Below, one piece after another: positions 6,271-29,642 of a stretch of DNA of 37,379 bases. Source of the DNA: a virus. Position 1 is the first letter of the stretch. Each line of letters begins with the position of its first letter. The notes under the pieces are model-generated. The model did no database searches. It was not told the DNA's origin and saw only the letters and a program-made list of their open reading frames with translations. The translations under genes and the position numbers were made by a program. The stretch is taken from positions 1-37,379 of IMG/VR virus record IMGVR_UViG_3300008050_000120; one strand, written 5' to 3'.

Positions 6271-7128
6271 ATGATAATATACGTGGCTACCAATAAGATA
6301 AATGGGAAGAAATATGTCGGTCAAACTATTGGCAAAATAAATAAACGAAAATGGCATCATATTGGCGATGCGATGAGAAGAAATTCTCAACGCGCTTTTC
6401 ACAGAGCTATACGAAAATATGGTGAAGCTAATTTTGATTGGGAAGTTATAGAGCGCTGTAAAACGATTGAAGAGTTAAACGGTAAAGAAAGGTTTTATAT
6501 AAAAAAGCTTAATACGTTTTATCGAGATCCAAAGTGCTGGGGGTACAATTTAACAATCGGCGGCGATGGAGCTTGTGGGTTTAAGCATAAGAATGTTCGT
6601 CGCGGTTCAGATAACCCAATGTATGGACGGGTGGTGTCTGAGGAAACGCGCGTCAGAATAAGAGAGGCGAAACGAGGATGTGTTGGTCACCCTCACACTC
6701 AGGAGGCTAAAAACAAAATATCCTCTGCTCATAAGGGCAAGAAGCTCTCTGAAGAACACAGGAAGAAGTTATCGCTCGCCAAACTTGGAAAGCCTGGACG
6801 GCCACATTCTGACGCAGAGAGAAAGGCTGCAAGCGTCAGAATGACTGGAAATAAGCTGAGCAAGGAGACCAAGGAAAAGCTTCGAATATGCAATCTAGGG
6901 AGAAAGGCTTCTGAAGAAACTAGGGCGAAAATGAGCAAGGCTTTAAAAGGAAAGGGAGTCAAGCCGGTTAGATGTATTGAGTTGAATTTGGACTTTGAGT
7001 CCGTAACACAAGCTGCATTATATTTTGATGCAAACCCCGGAGCAATAACTAGGGTCGCAAACGGTACAAGAAAGACGTTTAGGGGCTATGGTTTTTGCTA
7101 TATAAAAACACTCAGAAGGGATAATTAA
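6271..7128 (+). CDS. GIY-YIG homing endonuclease with NUMOD repeats
   Basis: This 285-aa free-standing endonuclease has a good Shine-Dalgarno (aggagagg). Residues 1-95 are the GIY-YIG nuclease domain (IIYVATN..NGKKYVGQT, a basic segment with KRKWHH, and a conserved Glu in NGKERFYIKKLN). Residues 105-235 contain NUMOD3-type DNA-binding repeats (SEETRVRIREAKRG, SEEHRKKLSLAKLGK, SKETKEKL, SEETRAKMSKALKG). The C-terminus is NUMOD1-like (PVRCIELNLDFESVTQAALYF). It abuts the DNA ligase gene with no gap, the usual setting for a Seg-type mobile gene. Confidence 0.92.
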   Translation: MIIYVATNKINGKKYVGQTIGKINKRKWHHIGDAMRRNSQRAFHRAIRKYGEANFDWEVIERCKTIEELNGKERFYIKKLNTFYRDPKCWGYNLTIGGDGACGFKHKNVRRGSDNPMYGRVVSEETRVRIREAKRGCVGHPHTQEAKNKISSAHKGKKLSEEHRKKLSLAKLGKPGRPHSDAERKAASVRMTGNKLSKETKEKLRICNLGRKASEETRAKMSKALKGKGVKPVRCIELNLDFESVTQAALYFDANPGAITRVANGTRKTFRGYGFCYIKTLRRDN

Positions 7129-8277
7129 ATGAAGCTGCCAACACTCTATGGAAAGTCAAAAAATGGAAAAATTAAGGAGTGGACAATCTCTGTTCTTGAA
7201 ATGGGAGACGGAACTTGCTATATAGAGACGGAACATGGTTACGAAGATGGGAAAAAGCAGCTCGATTCAAGATTGGTGTCTGAAGGTAAGAATTTGGGCA
7301 GAGCAAATGAAACTGATGCAAAAACTCAGGCATGTTCCGAAGCTAAGTCTTCTCACAATAAGAAGAAAGACGAAGGATATGTAGAAGATAAGACCAAGAT
7401 TCCGTCTGCATCAGACGGCTTGTTCCTTCCGATGCTTGCCCACCGATACGATAAGCATGCATCGAAGATTAAGTTCCCCTGTTTTGTTCAGGCAAAATTA
7501 GATGGAGCGAGGTTTTGTGCTAGAAAAGAAGATGGAAAAGTAACAATGTGGTCCCGGAAGGGAAAGGTCACAGAGATCTTAAGCAATATTATCTCTCAGC
7601 TAGAGACGCTTCTTGACGAGGGTCAGTCTGTAGATGGAGAGGCTTATGTTCATGGCTGGACATTCCAGCGGGTTATTTCTGCGGTTAAGAAGCAGAGGGC
7701 AGATACAGATGTATTAGAATATCATATCTATGATTTCCCGCATAAGACTCTTCCATTTGAGTCGAGAATGATTACTCATGATTCGGACGGGGTTCCGAGT
7801 TATTCTGCGTATAACCTTAACTTCAAAGATCGAATCAAGGGCTGTCCCAACATCAAGGTTGTAGAGACTTATACCGCAGATTCTAGTGATAATCTAAACT
7901 CTTATGAAGAAAAGTTTGTATCACTAGCGTATGAAGGATTAATGGCGAGAAATATTGGAAGTCCTTATGTTTACAAATCCCGGAGTTATTCTCTTCAGAA
8001 GGTTAAGCGTTTTATCTCGGATGAGTATGAGATTGTCGGATTTACCGATGGGGATGGGAGAGAGTCGGGCCTTGTTGTTTGGCGATGTGTGACTGATTCT
8101 GGGGATGAGTTTGGAGTCAGGCCGATGGGCACTCACGAAAGGCGAGCTGAATTATTTAAGAATGGAGACAAGTACATAGGGGAGAGGCTAACCGTTCAAT
8201 ATTTTGAGCTTTCGGAGGACGGTGTACCTCGTTTTCCGGTTGGCGTTGGACTGAGACCGGAATGGGATATGTCCTAG
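7129..8277 (+). CDS. ATP-dependent DNA ligase
   Basis: This 382-aa enzyme seals nicks in DNA. An N-terminal WGR-like segment (about residues 1-70) and a charged linker precede the nucleotidyltransferase core. The catalytic lysine is K123 in QAKLDGAR (motif I), with motif III DGEAYVHG (169-176), IIIa YHIYDF, IV YEGLMARN and V LQKVKRF, then an OB domain (YEIVGFTDGDGRE...FGVRPMGTHERR). All core motifs are intact. Its start codon directly follows the GIY-YIG stop. Confidence 0.93.
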   Translation: MKLPTLYGKSKNGKIKEWTISVLEMGDGTCYIETEHGYEDGKKQLDSRLVSEGKNLGRANETDAKTQACSEAKSSHNKKKDEGYVEDKTKIPSASDGLFLPMLAHRYDKHASKIKFPCFVQAKLDGARFCARKEDGKVTMWSRKGKVTEILSNIISQLETLLDEGQSVDGEAYVHGWTFQRVISAVKKQRADTDVLEYHIYDFPHKTLPFESRMITHDSDGVPSYSAYNLNFKDRIKGCPNIKVVETYTADSSDNLNSYEEKFVSLAYEGLMARNIGSPYVYKSRSYSLQKVKRFISDEYEIVGFTDGDGRESGLVVWRCVTDSGDEFGVRPMGTHERRAELFKNGDKYIGERLTVQYFELSEDGVPRFPVGVGLRPEWDMS

Positions 8278-11546: not shown

Positions 11547-12695
11547 ATGATTTATAGAGATAAGAATGAGAGAATTAATCTATTGGTGAGGGAGCATTTG
11601 GTTCCAAACCGAGAGCTTTTGGCTCTAGATCCAATCATTGCAGGAGGGTCAATTCTCTTTTGCTATCTGTTAGAGAAATCTTGCCAGGAGAATTTCCACT
11701 GGAACCTTTTGCTAAAGCGACTAAAAATATCGAATGGTCGCAATCTTGCAAAGGGAGCTTCTAGCGGAGACTACTCCGACATTGACTTCTGGTTTACGGA
11801 AGACAACGATGTTCATTCAAATCCAGATTCTAAATATAAAGAGCTTGTAGCAGATTACACGGAACAACTTGCCTATTATAAGAAAGGCTTATCCTCCAAA
11901 TACTCTCTCTCTCAGAAGTTAGCGGGGGTCAAGAAACACCCAAACAATACTTTTAATGTGTTTGGAGAGATAGCTTCCGCTAAGGCGGGACATCTGGCGA
12001 TTGGGCAGACGTCAAAAATAGGTCGCTCTCTTGATCTTCAAGGGGTGCTTAGTTCGACAAATTGGGCAAATACTTTTTCTCCAAGAAATATTTCTCCACC
12101 GAGAATGAAAGATGTCAATCATCAGTTTATAAAGAAGCCGGTCGAATCAGTTGAGGCTCTCATATCTGATTTCGATTTTACGAACTGTATGGTGGCATGG
12201 AAAGATGACTATCTGTATTACGATTCAGAGTTGATGGACCTATTTAATAGCGGGACTCTAAAGCTAAATGCAGATGAACAATACGTGTCTGGAAGTCTTC
12301 CGTCTAAGGTTTTCAATGCATTGAGGGCTCTTAAGTACGGAAGGAGATACGGACTCGACTTTGATGAAACTTTAATGCAGCATATTTTCAAGGTTTATGT
12401 TGACTGCAAGTCTTTAGATTATGATGCTTATGATAAAAAGGTGGCTTATATTAAGTGGACTTATGGTCAAGAGCGGGCTACAAGTCATACTTTCAAATCA
12501 ATGGTTGCTCGCCTCAAGGGACAGTTTGAAACGGTATCAGAAATGAAAACCTTTAAGCAGGAGTATGCCCTATATCTTATTGATGATGAGAAGAATCTGC
12601 CAGGGCTTAAGGCTTATATAGATAAATTGGGAATCAATAAGGATGGGAAAGAAGAACAGGGTGTGGAACGGGTAGTCGAGGCTTTTAGCTTTTGA
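11547..12695 (+). CDS. Predicted nucleotidyltransferase-fold protein
   Basis: 382 aa. The N-terminal region has the nucleotidyltransferase signature: IIAGGSIL (30-37), a 40-residue spacer, then SDIDFWF (77-83), i.e. G-G-S followed by D-x-D. A later strand, ISDFDFTNC, probably provides the third carboxylate. The C-terminal half is helical (ALRALKYGRRYGLDFDETLMQ). Similar GGS...DxD proteins occur in large viruses, but their substrate is unknown. Nucleotide transfer to RNA or protein is inferred from fold only. Confidence 0.65.
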   Translation: MIYRDKNERINLLVREHLVPNRELLALDPIIAGGSILFCYLLEKSCQENFHWNLLLKRLKISNGRNLAKGASSGDYSDIDFWFTEDNDVHSNPDSKYKELVADYTEQLAYYKKGLSSKYSLSQKLAGVKKHPNNTFNVFGEIASAKAGHLAIGQTSKIGRSLDLQGVLSSTNWANTFSPRNISPPRMKDVNHQFIKKPVESVEALISDFDFTNCMVAWKDDYLYYDSELMDLFNSGTLKLNADEQYVSGSLPSKVFNALRALKYGRRYGLDFDETLMQHIFKVYVDCKSLDYDAYDKKVAYIKWTYGQERATSHTFKSMVARLKGQFETVSEMKTFKQEYALYLIDDEKNLPGLKAYIDKLGINKDGKEEQGVERVVEAFSF

Positions 12696-12724
12696 TTTCA
12701 AACAAGCAAAGAAAAGAGAAATAA

Positions 12725-13510
12725 ATGTCAAAAAAAATTAACAAGTCTTACGATAAATTCTTAGAGCTACTTTTGTCCTTAAATAAAAAGGAGAAAAAAT
12801 GGCGATGGGCAAGACAAAAATATACTGATGATTCGCGAGTCTTGGAATATTGGAAGACTTTATCTAATAAAGCAAAGACCGCAATCGTAGGAGACTCTAG
12901 GTGGAATCATTATCCGATTTGGACCTACTCTAGCACAGATGCAAAAAAAGGGTTCGGAGAGGTTTTTGAGAATCTTGTAGCGGCGCTCTGTTATAGTCAG
13001 ACCGATAGAAAGATTTTGGTAAATCATTCCAAAGGAATTTTCGCAATTCATGTTCTTGATACTGTGTCTTCAGAGGAACGGATTAAAATGTCAAGAAGAC
13101 TAATTAATTCCAAAGACTCTCGGGTTAGAGGCCGGGTTGTAAATATTCTTCCAATCGCTTCTGCAAAGAAGATGATGAGAAATAGATCATTGCGCTCGAT
13201 GCCAAGAAACATTCAGACGAAGTTGGTGGCTAGAATTGGATTTGATAACTGCTATAAGGATTTTATTCCAGAGAATATAAGCAAACGTCCTTGGGGACTA
13301 GAGCGCAGAGCTTTACGCTTGGCAACCAAGAAAGATCTTAATTCACTTATCGCTAAGGTAAAGAGCGGAACTTATGCTCCCAATAATCTTATTATTGAAG
13401 AAATAGTTAAGAAGCTTTCACCGGATGAAGTAATCTTTTTTCTTGGAGATATAGGGGATAATGAGAGAGCCGCAAAGATCGCGGCGACTATTTTGGACTT
13501 ATCCAAATAG
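12725..13510 (+). CDS. Helical, possibly HEAT-like, hypothetical protein
   Basis: 261 aa, basic. It is predominantly helical with short repeating units (SRVRGRVVNILPIASAKKM, RRALRLATKKDLNSL, ERAAKIAATIL) that suggest HEAT/ARM-like packing. Comparable helical proteins are encoded at 22828, 30479 and 31229, perhaps one expanded family. No catalytic motif is seen. Confidence 0.65.
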   Translation: MSKKINKSYDKFLELLLSLNKKEKKWRWARQKYTDDSRVLEYWKTLSNKAKTAIVGDSRWNHYPIWTYSSTDAKKGFGEVFENLVAALCYSQTDRKILVNHSKGIFAIHVLDTVSSEERIKMSRRLINSKDSRVRGRVVNILPIASAKKMMRNRSLRSMPRNIQTKLVARIGFDNCYKDFIPENISKRPWGLERRALRLATKKDLNSLIAKVKSGTYAPNNLIIEEIVKKLSPDEVIFFLGDIGDNERAAKIAATILDLSK

Positions 13511-16365: not shown

Positions 16366-17200
16366 GAAAGTTCTGATTATAGACGCATATAATATGATAC
16401 ACAGATGCCGCTTCAAGTGGGGCGGCGGATTGGCAGACGGAGAGTATCAGATAGTCTATAACTTTTTTAGAACACTAAGAGCTACAGTTGCTCAGTTTTC
16501 TCCTGACATTGTGTATTTTCCGTTAGATGGAAAACCTGTGGCTCGACTGGAGGCAGACCCGAACTATAAGGGAAACCGAGTTATAGATACTAGTGATCCC
16601 GAAATAGTTAAGCATTGGGAGTCTTTCCATAGGCAGAAGAGAATTATTATTTCTTCTATTCAGAAAGACTATCCAATCCGAACTGTATATCATCCAGACC
16701 AAGAGTGCGACGATCTTGTTCAGTATCTTATCGAGTATTATCATGATGCTGATGACGTTACTGTTATCTCTTCTGATACAGACTTCATTCAGCTTCTTAA
16801 TAAATTTCCAGAAACGGTAAAGCTATATAATCCTATCTCAAAAGAGTATCGTGAGAATACAGATTATGATTATGTTTCTTGGAAGGCAATGGTCGGAGAC
16901 AAAGCTGACAACATTCCTGGGGTTAAAGGTATAGGAAAGAAGACTGCTTCAAAGATTCTGGCAACAGCCGGACTTTTAGATTTGAGGCTCACAGAAGAGA
17001 AGTTCCGTAAGGCTTACGAAAAAAGTTATAATTTAATAAAATTTATTGACTTGAAGTCCGAAGAGAGTAACATCGTTTATACAAAATCTGTCCTAGATAT
17101 GGAGAGCATAGCTAACGATTTTCATGCTATGAACTTTACGTCCATACTAAAGCAGTCTTCAATAGACAAATATGAAGAAACCTTTTTAACTTTGCAGTAG
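16343..17200 (+). CDS. 5'-3' exonuclease / FEN-type flap endonuclease
   Basis: 285 aa. PIN-like FEN fold with D14 (IIDAYN), DGKP (62-65), YKGNR (75-79), ECDDL (121-125), SSDTDF (143-148) and the helix-hairpin-helix GDKADNIPGVKGIGKKTA (185-202). It removes 5' flaps or RNA primers during phage replication and works with the DNA ligase at 7129. The TTG start at 16343 follows an aggaga ribosome site; the first in-frame ATG would delete the active-site Asp. Confidence 0.92.
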   Translation: MTLKPLSKKVLIIDAYNMIHRCRFKWGGGLADGEYQIVYNFFRTLRATVAQFSPDIVYFPLDGKPVARLEADPNYKGNRVIDTSDPEIVKHWESFHRQKRIIISSIQKDYPIRTVYHPDQECDDLVQYLIEYYHDADDVTVISSDTDFIQLLNKFPETVKLYNPISKEYRENTDYDYVSWKAMVGDKADNIPGVKGIGKKTASKILATAGLLDLRLTEEKFRKAYEKSYNLIKFIDLKSEESNIVYTKSVLDMESIANDFHAMNFTSILKQSSIDKYEETFLTLQ

Positions 17201-20892: not shown

Positions 20893-22497
20893 ATGTCTAA
20901 AGAAGTTAAGTTTAATACAGATGCCAGAAAGGGTTTACAAGAGGGTTTAGATATTCTCGCCAATGCAGTTAAAGCTACTCTGGGACCAAGAGGCCGACAC
21001 GCAGCAATAGAGAGAAACTTCGGGCCTCCTCTTATTACAAAGGACGGAGTAACAGTTGCTAGAGCCATCACTCTCAAGGGTAAAATCCAAAACATGGGAG
21101 CAGAGCTTATTAAGAGCGTAGCCTCTTCGACAAACTCTCTTGCTGGTGATGGAACTACTACAGCAACTGTTTTGGCTCAAGCTATTTATACAGAAGGCTC
21201 AAAGATGGTCGCGGCTGGACATAATCCGGTTCTAATCAAAAGAGGCATTGATAGGGCCGTTGAGATTGTATCTGCGAGTCTTAAGGATTTGGCTCAGGAG
21301 GTTTCCAGCGAAGACATTATTAACAGTGTGGCAATTATTTCTGCAAATAATGATGAGAAGCTAGGAAAGATAATCGGGAAAGTGATCTCTGCCGTTGGCG
21401 ATCATGGTTTGATTTCTGTTGAGGAGTCTGCTGGAGCGGAAACTAACGTTTCATATTCGGAAGGTCTATCCTTTGACAGAGGGTATATGTCTCCGATCTT
21501 TTCAACAAACTTGGACAGAATGACTGTAGAGTTTGAGAACCCGCTGATACTGGTTTATGACGGAAGGATAGCTAAAACGTCTGAATTAATGTCGGTTGCA
21601 CAGCAGGCAGCTAAAGATAATCGTCCACTATTGGTTATTGCACAGACTGTAGAGGGAGAGGCTTTTCAGACTTTAGTTCTAAATAAAGCTCGTAAAACTC
21701 TAACGTCCTGTGCGGTAAGAGCGCCTGGATTTGGAGATATGAGAAGGGATATGCTTGGAGATATCGCTACAGTATGCGGTGCTACGCTGTTTACTAATGA
21801 CGCAGGCTCTCCACTTGAAGATGCTCCGTTGGAGAGTCTTGGTTCTGCCAGAAGAGTGATCATCACAAGAGGTGACACTACAATTATAGACGGAGTCGGA
21901 ACAGAAGAGGCTGTAGAAAAAAGAGTTAACTCAATTAACATGAGGCTGGAGGAGTCCAGACTTGAGCGTTATGAGATTGCAGCACTCAAGCAGAGACTGT
22001 CTGCGCTGACTGGATCTATCGCTGTGCTCAAGGTTGGCGGAGTATCTGAGGAAGAGGTTAGAGAGAAGAAGGACAGAGTCGAAGACGCAATCAACGCTGT
22101 TAGAGCTGCAATAGAAGAGGGAATTGTTCCCGGTGGTGGTGCGGCATTGCTACATTGCCTTCCTGCTCTAGAAGAATTTAAGTCTACTGCAAATTTAACA
22201 ACAGAAGAGATTGTCGGATGTGATGTTGTTGCTTTCGCAATGAGGGCTCCATTTATTCAGATCTTAAAGAATGCAGGTACAGAATATCATTTGCATATGG
22301 AAACCATTATTAGCTCAAAGTCAACTGTGATGGGCTATGATGCTCTAGAGGGTTCTTTGAAAGAAGATATGGTAGAGGCCGGAATTATTGATCCGGTAAA
22401 GGTAGTTAGGACGGGGCTTGAAAATGCCGCATCATCTGGAGGAATCCTCCTTACTACCGAGGTTACAATTTATAGTTCTCCGGATGAACAGAAATAG
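20893..22497 (+). CDS. groEL: GroEL-family chaperonin
   Basis: 534 aa, close to the usual 540-550. Conserved ATPase elements: ATLGPRGR (28-35), ITKDGVTVA (48-56), AGDGTTTATVLA (84-95, with the catalytic-region Asp) and RVEDAINAVRAAIEEGIVPGGGAAL. Apical-domain and hinge sequences are recognisable. The C-terminus lacks the GGM repeat of bacterial GroEL. No groES is visible in the window. Phage chaperonins of this type occur in several giant phages and may fold virion proteins. Confidence 0.96.
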   Translation: MSKEVKFNTDARKGLQEGLDILANAVKATLGPRGRHAAIERNFGPPLITKDGVTVARAITLKGKIQNMGAELIKSVASSTNSLAGDGTTTATVLAQAIYTEGSKMVAAGHNPVLIKRGIDRAVEIVSASLKDLAQEVSSEDIINSVAIISANNDEKLGKIIGKVISAVGDHGLISVEESAGAETNVSYSEGLSFDRGYMSPIFSTNLDRMTVEFENPLILVYDGRIAKTSELMSVAQQAAKDNRPLLVIAQTVEGEAFQTLVLNKARKTLTSCAVRAPGFGDMRRDMLGDIATVCGATLFTNDAGSPLEDAPLESLGSARRVIITRGDTTIIDGVGTEEAVEKRVNSINMRLEESRLERYEIAALKQRLSALTGSIAVLKVGGVSEEEVREKKDRVEDAINAVRAAIEEGIVPGGGAALLHCLPALEEFKSTANLTTEEIVGCDVVAFAMRAPFIQILKNAGTEYHLHMETIISSKSTVMGYDALEGSLKEDMVEAGIIDPVKVVRTGLENAASSGGILLTTEVTIYSSPDEQK

Positions 22498-28582: not shown

Positions 28583-28613
28583 CCAGACACTTAGACGAAA
28601 GGAGGAACGCAGC

Positions 28614-29642
28614 ATGATCAACAAAGCAGACATAGTAGTTGGTTTATGCTGGGGTTGACCTTCGGGTCAATCTCAATATAAAAGCGATGAAGCAAAAGGA
28701 AAGATTACTGCACAACTAGCAAGTAGTGGTGAGTACGATGTTATAGCAAGGTGGGCCGGAGGTAATAACGCCGGACATACAGTGTGGGTTGACAATAAGA
28801 AGTACAAGACACACTTGATTCCATCTGGCGTTTTCTACGGAGTAGAATCTGTTATTGGTCCCGCCTGCATTTTGCACCCGGAATCATTTCTCAGTGAGAT
28901 AGAATACCTAGATAAGAACGGATTTGATACGGGGTTAGTTAAAGTTTCCCCACGTTGTCATATTGTTTTAGATGAGCATATCGAATATGACAAGCGAAAT
29001 CTAGCATCAAAGCTTGGAACGACAAGCAAAGGGATTGCTCCATGCTATGCCTCTAAGGCAGCCAGAACAGGAGTCTTAGCGAAGGACGTTCTAGATCCCT
29101 CATGGATTTGGAATGAGAAGCTTAGTGGTTCAGTGCTGTGCGAGGGAGCCCAGGGAGTTTGGTTAGATATTGACTATGGTCTTTATCCCTATGTGACGTC
29201 ATCTACAACGCTGCCATACGGAGCCTGTTCAATCGGATTCCCACCTCAGAAGATTAACGATATTTGGGGTGCGGCAAAGATATATGATACAAGATCAGGT
29301 GAAGACCCCAGATTCCCAGACAGCTTGCTTGATGACGTGGAGTTAGCTGCGATAGCAAAGCTGGGAGAGGAGTATGGTGTGACAACTGGTAGACCAAGAA
29401 AGGTCAACTGGTTGAACCTAGACTCTCTAATACGAGCAATTAACCTTACTGGCACGACCAATCTGGTTATTAGTAAGTGTGACATTCTTCAGGAGTTTGG
29501 AGTCTTTAAGCTTGTCTATAATAATGAGAGTCGTAGCTTTGCAACTCTGGATAAGATGTGTTGGTTTATAAATGACGCCATATATTCGGCGTGTGTCTTA
29601 ATTGAGAATGTTAAATATTCTTACTCCCCGAAAGGAATATAG
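28614..29642 (+). CDS. Adenylosuccinate synthetase (PurA/PurZ family) with in-frame TGA in the P-loop
   Basis: About 340 codons from ATG 28614 (ggagg upstream). It should join Asp to a purine 6-oxo nucleotide using GTP. Family motifs are intact: GGNNAGHTV, TTSKGIAPCYASKAAR, EGAQGVWLDIDYG..PYVTSS, KIYDTRSGEDPRFP and TTGRPRKVNWL. The P-loop, normally GLQWGDEGKGK, reads GLCWG, then ten extra codons beginning with TGA (28656-28658), then DEAKGK in the same frame. The TGA lies in a 10-bp hairpin capped by TTCG. The rest of the gene is well preserved, arguing for recoding rather than decay: translational bypassing of about 30 nt is my leading idea. PurZ (2-aminoadenine pathway) cannot be excluded, but Asp of the loop is kept and no other Z-genome genes are seen. 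Confidence 0.8.
28651..28685 (+). promoter_or_regulatory. Candidate translational-bypass (recoding) element in purA-like gene
   Basis: Gly codon GGT (28653-28655) is followed by TGA (28656-28658). The stem TTGACC (28655-28660)/GGTCAA (28665-28670) has a TTCG tetraloop and extends with GGGG/TCTC to 10 pairs including wobbles (28651-28674). The family alignment requires 28656-28685 (30 nt) to be absent from the product. T4 gene 60 has the same kind of signal: Gly codon plus stop codon within a UUCG-capped take-off hairpin. Landing codon not obvious: AGC (28683) gives the exact family sequence; GGT (28665) matches the take-off codon but leaves six extra residues. Confidence 0.55.

Follow-up and report, generated by a model that had tools for sequence, protein, structure and literature searches.

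For more than 35 years, gene 60 of bacteriophage T4 has stood alone among phages as a well-established case of large-scale programmed translational bypassing. The gap in this gene is present in the transcript, and ribosomes pass over it without decoding (PMC3014915). It has been shown that a small A-site stem-loop forms and that, together with the nascent peptide, it blocks termination and favors a hyper-rotated ribosome; sliding is driven by EF-G, while refolding behind the ribosome gives it direction, with a processivity of about 0.99 per nucleotide up to 56 nt (PMC11194080). Bypassing in T4 also needs a nascent-peptide motif, at a distance of 25-30 residues from the P site (PMC5009743). Gene 60 is adjoined by mobA, a homing endonuclease gene that is apparently defective (PMC3014915), and the gap has been suggested to serve as a protection from endonuclease (PMC5009743). 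A 2016 review notes a long-standing presumption that counterparts with shorter gaps exist, and states that in-frame stop hops were not known from nature (PMC5009743).

Here, we describe an adenylosuccinate synthetase-like gene from a virus which is split in its P-loop by a stop codon and a hairpin. We consider it very likely that compact, hairpin-only programmed translational bypassing is the best explanation for this gene of the purA/purZ superfamily, an interpretation which is inferred from sequence alone and for which there are no protein, ribosome or RNA data. No earlier report of bypassing in purA or purZ was found in the literature searched, most subscription papers being outside its scope.

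A stop codon and a hairpin within a viral P-loop

The window, i.e., the whole stretch of DNA analyzed, is a virus record of 37.4 kb whose plus strand carries an interrupted purA-like gene (28614-29642). After a Shine-Dalgarno sequence (AGGAGG, 28600-28605), a first open reading frame of 14 codons (MINKADIVVGLCWG; 28614-28655, ATG at 28614) encodes the first half of the P-loop, as judged by homology to plain relatives (those without insert). Its 14th codon, the putative take-off glycine codon GGT (28653-28655), is followed at once by TGA (28656-28658), the first triplet of the coding gap. The nine codons after this stop read CCT TCG GGT CAA TCT CAA TAT AAA AGC, and the last of them is the putative landing triplet (28683-28685), directly 3' of the hairpin base. 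TGA and these 27 nt, which part WG from DEAKGK inside the P-loop, form a 30-nt insert (28656-28685; a 27-nt gap plus the landing triplet) missing from plain relatives. The second open reading frame (28686-29642) opens with GAT GAA GCA AAA GGA AAG (DEAKGK) and stays open for 318 codons up to a TAG stop ending at 29642; it encodes the remaining part of the enzyme, as supported by profile matches and purifying selection. TGA serves as an ordinary stop elsewhere in the window, as had been claimed.

In a profile search, PF00709 matched the downstream part in two blocks (7e-44 and 1e-35), and the gene matched PHROG 1211 (phrog_1211, 7e-62). The gene belongs to the PF00709 superfamily by its profile match together with the catalytic motifs, namely the P-loop Asp and the His of NNAGHT. 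With a plain relative as query, the PDB relatives 4m0g and 1ade were found. Regarding assignment to PurA or PurZ, NCBIfam scores were under all cut-offs.

The junction is predicted to fold into an extended hairpin (28643-28682), with an outer stem formed by UUUAUG (28643-28648) and UAUAAA (28677-28682) and an inner stem of 11 bp formed by UGGGGUUGACC (28650-28660) and GGUCAAUCUCA (28665-28675), closed by a TTCG (UUCG) loop (28661-28664). Both the take-off codon and the stop sit in the 5' arm. The 45-nt element, from the GGT codon at -5 to the landing triplet, has a predicted folding energy of -18.5 kcal/mol versus -6.8 +/- 2.0 for dinucleotide shuffles (z -6.0), none of the 500 shuffles being as stable. 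An Rfam search revealed no RNA family or intron at this site and found only two tRNAs. A group I intron or another known RNA element was rejected, with no family match at the site and inserts which are too short.

Insert lengths, reading frames and selection

About a hundred related loci were considered, with 73 distinct coding sequences (70 different proteins) in the tree. Two carriers of inserts were discovered by protein search and the rest by a DNA pattern which did not demand any stop codon. Around 65 relatives read WG^DEAKGK or similar, without insert, and in nearly all relatives WG is directly followed by DEAKGK, DEGKGK or DTGKGK, WG being replaced by HG, FG, YG, KG or LG in a few. At exactly the nucleotide interrupted in the window, six other distinct phage genomes also carry a stop and a hairpin. 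Across the seven genomes, the inserts measure 30 (window), 32, 29, 13, 13, 12 and 12 nt, and none is present in the other relatives inspected. Their junctions read GGT TGA ccttcgggtcaatctcaacataaaaa GGT GAC in L003 = L004 (32 nt), GGT TGA cccttcggggttaacaacaacaa AGC GAC in L061 = L237 (29 nt), GGT TAA aacccc AGT GAT in L005 = L042 (12 nt), GGT TAA acccca GGC GAC in L047 = L079 = L232 (12 nt) and GGT TAA ctacccc GGC GAT in both L080 = L262 and L089 = L223 (13 nt each).

The window insert is not a sequencing error, because six other phage genomes carry the stop and hairpin at the identical position; an error is further countered by three of the six having been seen in two separate metagenome records each (L003/L004, L005/L042 and L047/L079). 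The original prediction, which placed a stop and a TTCG-loop hairpin inside the P-loop and left room for a sequence error, hence held in its first part by sequence, folding and same-site inserts, and the error failed. Plain relatives lack exactly the 30 nt of the window, as this prediction would have it, and the same insert followed by a decayed downstream sequence, which would have refuted it, was not seen, the frame being intact in all carriers.

The anatomy of the element is shared by these genomes. The take-off codon is GGT in 7/7 carriers, immediately followed by TGA or, in four of them, TAA, while plain relatives use GGT, GGC, GGA or GGG. The landing triplet is RGY in all seven: GGT in L003, GGC in L047, L080 and L089, and AGY in the other three, including the window, where AGC is found and not a matched GGT. 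The codon at which reading resumes is always GAY. The post hoc chance of RGY landing is about 3e-7 for the five insert types; this statistic, like that on codon invariance below, was chosen with the data already at hand. The gaps separating take-off and landing triplets span 9-29 nt, the nascent chain at take-off would count 14-17 residues, and the downstream frame is unbroken for 318-327 codons in all carriers.

Longer inserts (up to about 65 nt) were not found in purA, nor were inserts before P-loops of the DTGKGK type. No second purA-like gene was present in the carrier contigs, which are not certified complete. Known phage records gave no DNA match to the site, and PurA relatives there are below 60% identity. 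In a partial pattern scan of cellular genomes, the matches inspected proved to be normal purA genes preceded by TGGGG through chance, which does not establish that bacteria lack the element.

All three classes of insert length modulo 3 are represented. The inserts of the window, L005 and L047 are multiples of three, while those of L003 (32 nt), L061 (29 nt) and L080/L089 (13 nt) shift the frame, in one of two ways. The set as a whole is explained neither by readthrough nor by a single frameshift. Stop-codon readthrough, alone or with frameshifting, would insert a loop of 4-10 residues into the P-loop, and the in-frame inserts of three carriers are in its favor. The 30 nt of the window alone could not exclude this competing idea; its relatives of 29, 32 and 13 nt do. 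L003 and L061 possess further stops in the needed frame (TAA, 2 and 4 codons before GAY, respectively), two different stop codons are used, and a loop between WG and the catalytic Asp, which no relative has, would be expected to destroy the site. Readthrough is thus very improbable. Selenocysteine, initially judged less likely, is now excluded by TAA in four carriers, out-of-frame inserts and the absence of a corresponding residue in relatives.

Termination-reinitiation is common in phages, and reinitiation downstream could yield a second polypeptide complementing the first. The nearest in-frame stop upstream of GAY lies 2, 3, 3, 4, 7, 7 or 9 codons away depending on the carrier, and no ATG, GTG or TTG is present between this stop and GAY in any of them, so reinitiation at one of these common starts cannot supply the P-loop. 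In the window, the first listed downstream start (GTG, 28782) is beyond the P-loop, whose downstream codons are conserved to the nucleotide. This alternative therefore appears highly unlikely. In every carrier, the family P-loop is restored if the ribosome hops from GGT onto the triplet preceding GAY.

For the downstream part, pN/pS ranges from 0.22 to 0.35 (mean 0.30) among the seven carriers versus 0.14 to 0.37 (mean 0.26) among nine plain relatives, and dN/dS at unsaturated dS is 0.08-0.15. Motifs such as DEAKGK and NNAGHT, including the catalytic Asp and His motifs, are invariant in six aligned carriers. The downstream codons are under normal purifying selection, from which a functional enzyme, as originally proposed, is inferred; activity itself is not shown. 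Inactivation of the gene, the insert being a mutation or a defense scar and only a peptide of 14-17 residues being made, finds support in the stop codon which directly interrupts the P-loop. It is nevertheless very unlikely: purifying selection equals that of plain relatives across carrier lineages that are 25-34% divergent in amino acids, the catalytic motifs are invariant, and the insert diversified while the hairpin and flanking codons stayed.

The nucleotides around the junction are constrained as well. In carriers, 151 degenerate columns encode an amino acid that never varies; only nine of them are codon-invariant, and six of these nine flank the junction (hypergeometric 3.9e-8): GGT TTA at -5 and -4, the take-off GGT at -1, and GAA GCA AAA at +1 to +3. 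The same codon positions vary in plain relatives. In long types, the upstream constrained part pairs into the hairpin. The codons GAA GCA AAA (window 28689-28697) are synonymously frozen in the seven carriers, and no pairing partner was identified for them. Collectively, these sequence data show selection on the joined protein and on the flanking RNA sequence.

A hairpin is predicted in 7/7 carriers, the UUCG loop being restricted to the three long types. z scores are -6.0, -5.5 and -4.6 for long types, and -3.1, -2.1, -1.6 and -1.3 for short types, which are only modestly better than shuffles. The inner stems pair through different sequences (ACC-UUCG-GGU versus ACCC-UUCG-GGGU), with an added C-G pair in L061. 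In long types, the upstream UUUAUG pairs with UAUAAA or CAUAAA, L061 using instead UGUUG with CAACA. In short types, ACCCC pairs with the GGGGU that precedes the stop, and the loop begins with the stop itself (UAAA, UAA or UAACU); the landing triplet comes directly after the hairpin or within its stem base.

We infer that length variants and one conserved protein can be reconciled only by bypassing or by removal of RNA. In this main rival explanation, the insert would be cut out of the mRNA and the ends religated, for instance by an RNA ligase of phage origin or by some excision system not yet known. Every insert is excisable as GG^[TTRA...RG]^Y, leaving GGY; among the genes of the window phage is one for an RNA ligase, which is itself fractured and of the split-intein kind; and removal would also account for the three frame classes. 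Against it, inserts of 12-32 nt cannot be ribozymes, Rfam gave no intron at the site and, to our knowledge, no system is known to excise such hairpins. RNA removal also leaves unexplained the in-frame stop directly after Gly in 7/7 carriers, the frozen GGT and the close match to T4 gene 60. It is unlikely, although sequence does not exclude it. Bypassing akin to that of T4 gene 60, as first proposed for the window, is supported by length variants in all frame classes encoding one conserved protein, without protein, ribosome or RNA data.

Phylogeny and neighboring homing endonucleases

In the tree, the window, L003, L005, L089 and L080, all with inserts, form group A (support 92/98), and L047, L061 and the plain L277 form group B (93/95). 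Each group contains both UUCG and short types. The AU test mildly rejects a clade made up of carriers only (p 0.028), but not one of carriers plus L277 (p 0.25), so a single origin with loss in L277, or transfer, remains possible. A search with Gp23 gave no information.

In the genome containing L080 (G008), purA is separated from its usual upstream neighbor by a gene of 283 amino acids in opposite orientation (L262:2011-2859), which matches DUF7487 (1e-22) and the PHROG 3339 homing endonuclease (1e-16). In that containing L089 (G009), the last 28 codons of a G008-type endonuclease gene persist at the same place (L223:2779-2862, 82% amino-acid identity), the remainder being deleted. In the plain relative L035, an endonuclease homolog (44% over 257 amino acids) immediately precedes purA and has the same orientation. 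No endonuclease gene adjoining purA was found in the window or the remaining carriers. By analogy with T4, the insert probably arose in the recognition region of a homing endonuclease once adjoining purA, and the elements may have arisen or spread as a protection from it. The proposal that the element may be a mobile byp was partly borne out, with two insert families in two clades and an endonuclease or its remnant directly upstream in two carriers; a coarse scan of ten contigs found no copy of the element in another gene.

L035 (6500-7540) also shows a one-base frame break in its P-loop (GATGAAAGGC) and, before the endonuclease, a 13-bp P-loop-like copy (TGGGGTGATGAAG, at about 6524); these may be the mark of a cutting site or an error.

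Other interrupted or endonuclease-associated genes were observed. In the window, an RNA ligase gene (PHROG 968) is in three pieces (12-2665): the N-extein and intein start (12-932), a separate DUF7487-family endonuclease-like frame (1105-1881), and the intein end with the C-extein (1823-2665). This gene is likely fractured, with a split intein around a homing endonuclease. A GIY-YIG/NUMOD3 homing endonuclease gene (6271-7128) directly precedes an ATP-dependent DNA ligase gene (7129-8277). All open reading frames of ten contigs were compared with each other by tblastn for split collinear matches as second bypass sites, and only repeats, overlaps and one-base frame breaks were obtained. In G003:C1 (L339), an extra base in a CCCCC run (16760-16812) seems to break the frame of a gene intact in G001, probably through an indel or error.

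The carrier contigs resemble genomes of large tailed phages, with terminase-like matches in 4/7 records tested, mostly below cut-off. Carriers are likely large viruses, presumably of bacteria; all sequences are metagenomic and the host is unidentified. Terminase-like frames in G001:C1 (near 88746) and G005:C1 (near 17368) have about 950 codons versus about 600 in G011 and G013, and an intein or other insertion is possible. The window further encodes a GroEL-like chaperonin (20893-22497), about 46% identical to versions of other large phages, and the contig L343 of G009 encodes a tmRNA (12650-13026, tag ANNNYHYNSVALAA). tRNA-Gly(TCC) is present in the window, tRNA-Gly(GCC) and (TCC) in G007, and none was found in the other carriers; a special tRNA was rejected as an explanation, with no consistent link across carriers. 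G007, a 332-kb contig, also has a suppressor-like tRNA with anticodon CTA (L336:3576-3651), yet TAG ends many long frames there.

Putative mechanism and known cases of bypassing

The ribosomal mechanism of bypassing in purA and its efficiency are inferred. The ribosome would translate 14-17 codons up to the Gly codon GGU, whereupon the stop and hairpin would enter the A site. The hairpin would hinder release-factor binding, and peptidyl-tRNA-Gly would detach from GGU. The gap of 9-29 nt may then fold into a hairpin behind or within the ribosome, the tRNA re-pairing at the RGY triplet at the hairpin base and decoding resuming at GAY. The predicted product has an uninterrupted P-loop, GLxWG-DEAKGK.

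By analogy, an A-site stem-loop and refolding behind the ribosome, as in T4, could operate here. The nascent-peptide part cannot be that of T4, because only 14-17 residues, the conserved N terminus of the enzyme itself, exist at take-off. Short gaps may need less help, because T4 processivity is about 0.99 per nucleotide. Among the points against bypassing, 3/7 landing triplets are AGY, with a first-position C-A mismatch with the Gly-tRNA(GCC) anticodon, the distance of the peptide motif in T4 is unattainable with a chain of 14-17 residues, and the short hairpins surpass shuffles only modestly. Of the criteria of bypassing, those that concern sequence are seen, i.e., two open reading frames, a conserved joint protein and gaps in three frame classes.

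We lean, with some reserve, toward a bolder reading, in which these genes hold a family of minimal hairpin-only bypass elements. Ribosomes would hop 9-29 nt over a stop without a long nascent-peptide signal and land on cognate or near-cognate RGY with an efficiency sustaining the enzyme, and the elements would have been kept and remodeled through several phage lineages, having possibly arisen or spread via endonuclease protection. With at least five natural element sequences at one site in three frame classes, the series makes it testable which parts are needed among hairpin, stop, matched codons and nascent peptide. Owing to their size, the short elements lend themselves to reporter assays and structural work, and the series is relevant to the question of how such elements originate and are maintained.

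Among described systems, the byps of Magnusiomyces capitatus mitochondria are also short, frame-disrupting inserts which are skipped, with imperfect take-off and landing matches tolerated (PMC5009743). These are mitochondrial, number 81 sites, and are apparently context-independent with relaxed decoding, whereas purA has one conserved phage site with a hairpin and frozen context. Synthetic stop-hops likewise cross a stop flanked by like codons over a short distance, as L047 would (GGT TAA ACCCCA GGC), but they are reporter constructs, while in purA a hairpin is present and natural selection is indicated. Bypassing has also been proposed in other phage or bacterial genes, namely the Streptomyces phage Hau3 terminase, a Prevotella loescheii adhesin (29 nt) and the Corndog tape measure; Hau3, like purA, has WG before the site (PMC5009743, PMC4351075). 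In contrast to purA, these are single cases with limited evidence and no length-variant series at a fixed site.

T4 gene 60 is the closest match. In both, a stop directly follows a Gly take-off codon (7/7 carriers), take-off and stop are within a hairpin, capped by UUCG in T4 and in the long types of purA, and relatives without gap exist. Landing would be at a like codon in 4/7 carriers (Gly GGY), and the homing endonuclease neighbor, mobA in T4, has a counterpart in G008, a DUF7487-type gene, with a remnant in G009. Unlike T4, the purA elements belong to a different gene and different phages, have gaps of 9-29 nt versus about 50, and have GGU and not GGA as putative take-off codon and RGY, matched or near-cognate, as putative landing triplet. 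They lack a KKYK-like signal, the chain of 14-17 codons being part of a conserved enzyme motif, and in short types there is no tetraloop and the stop forms the loop. They also form a series of seven genomes, five insert lengths and three frame classes. From sequence alone, the purA elements are therefore inferred to work like T4 gene 60 but without its gap length and long nascent-peptide signal, and with different codons, so that they are not of that exact kind.
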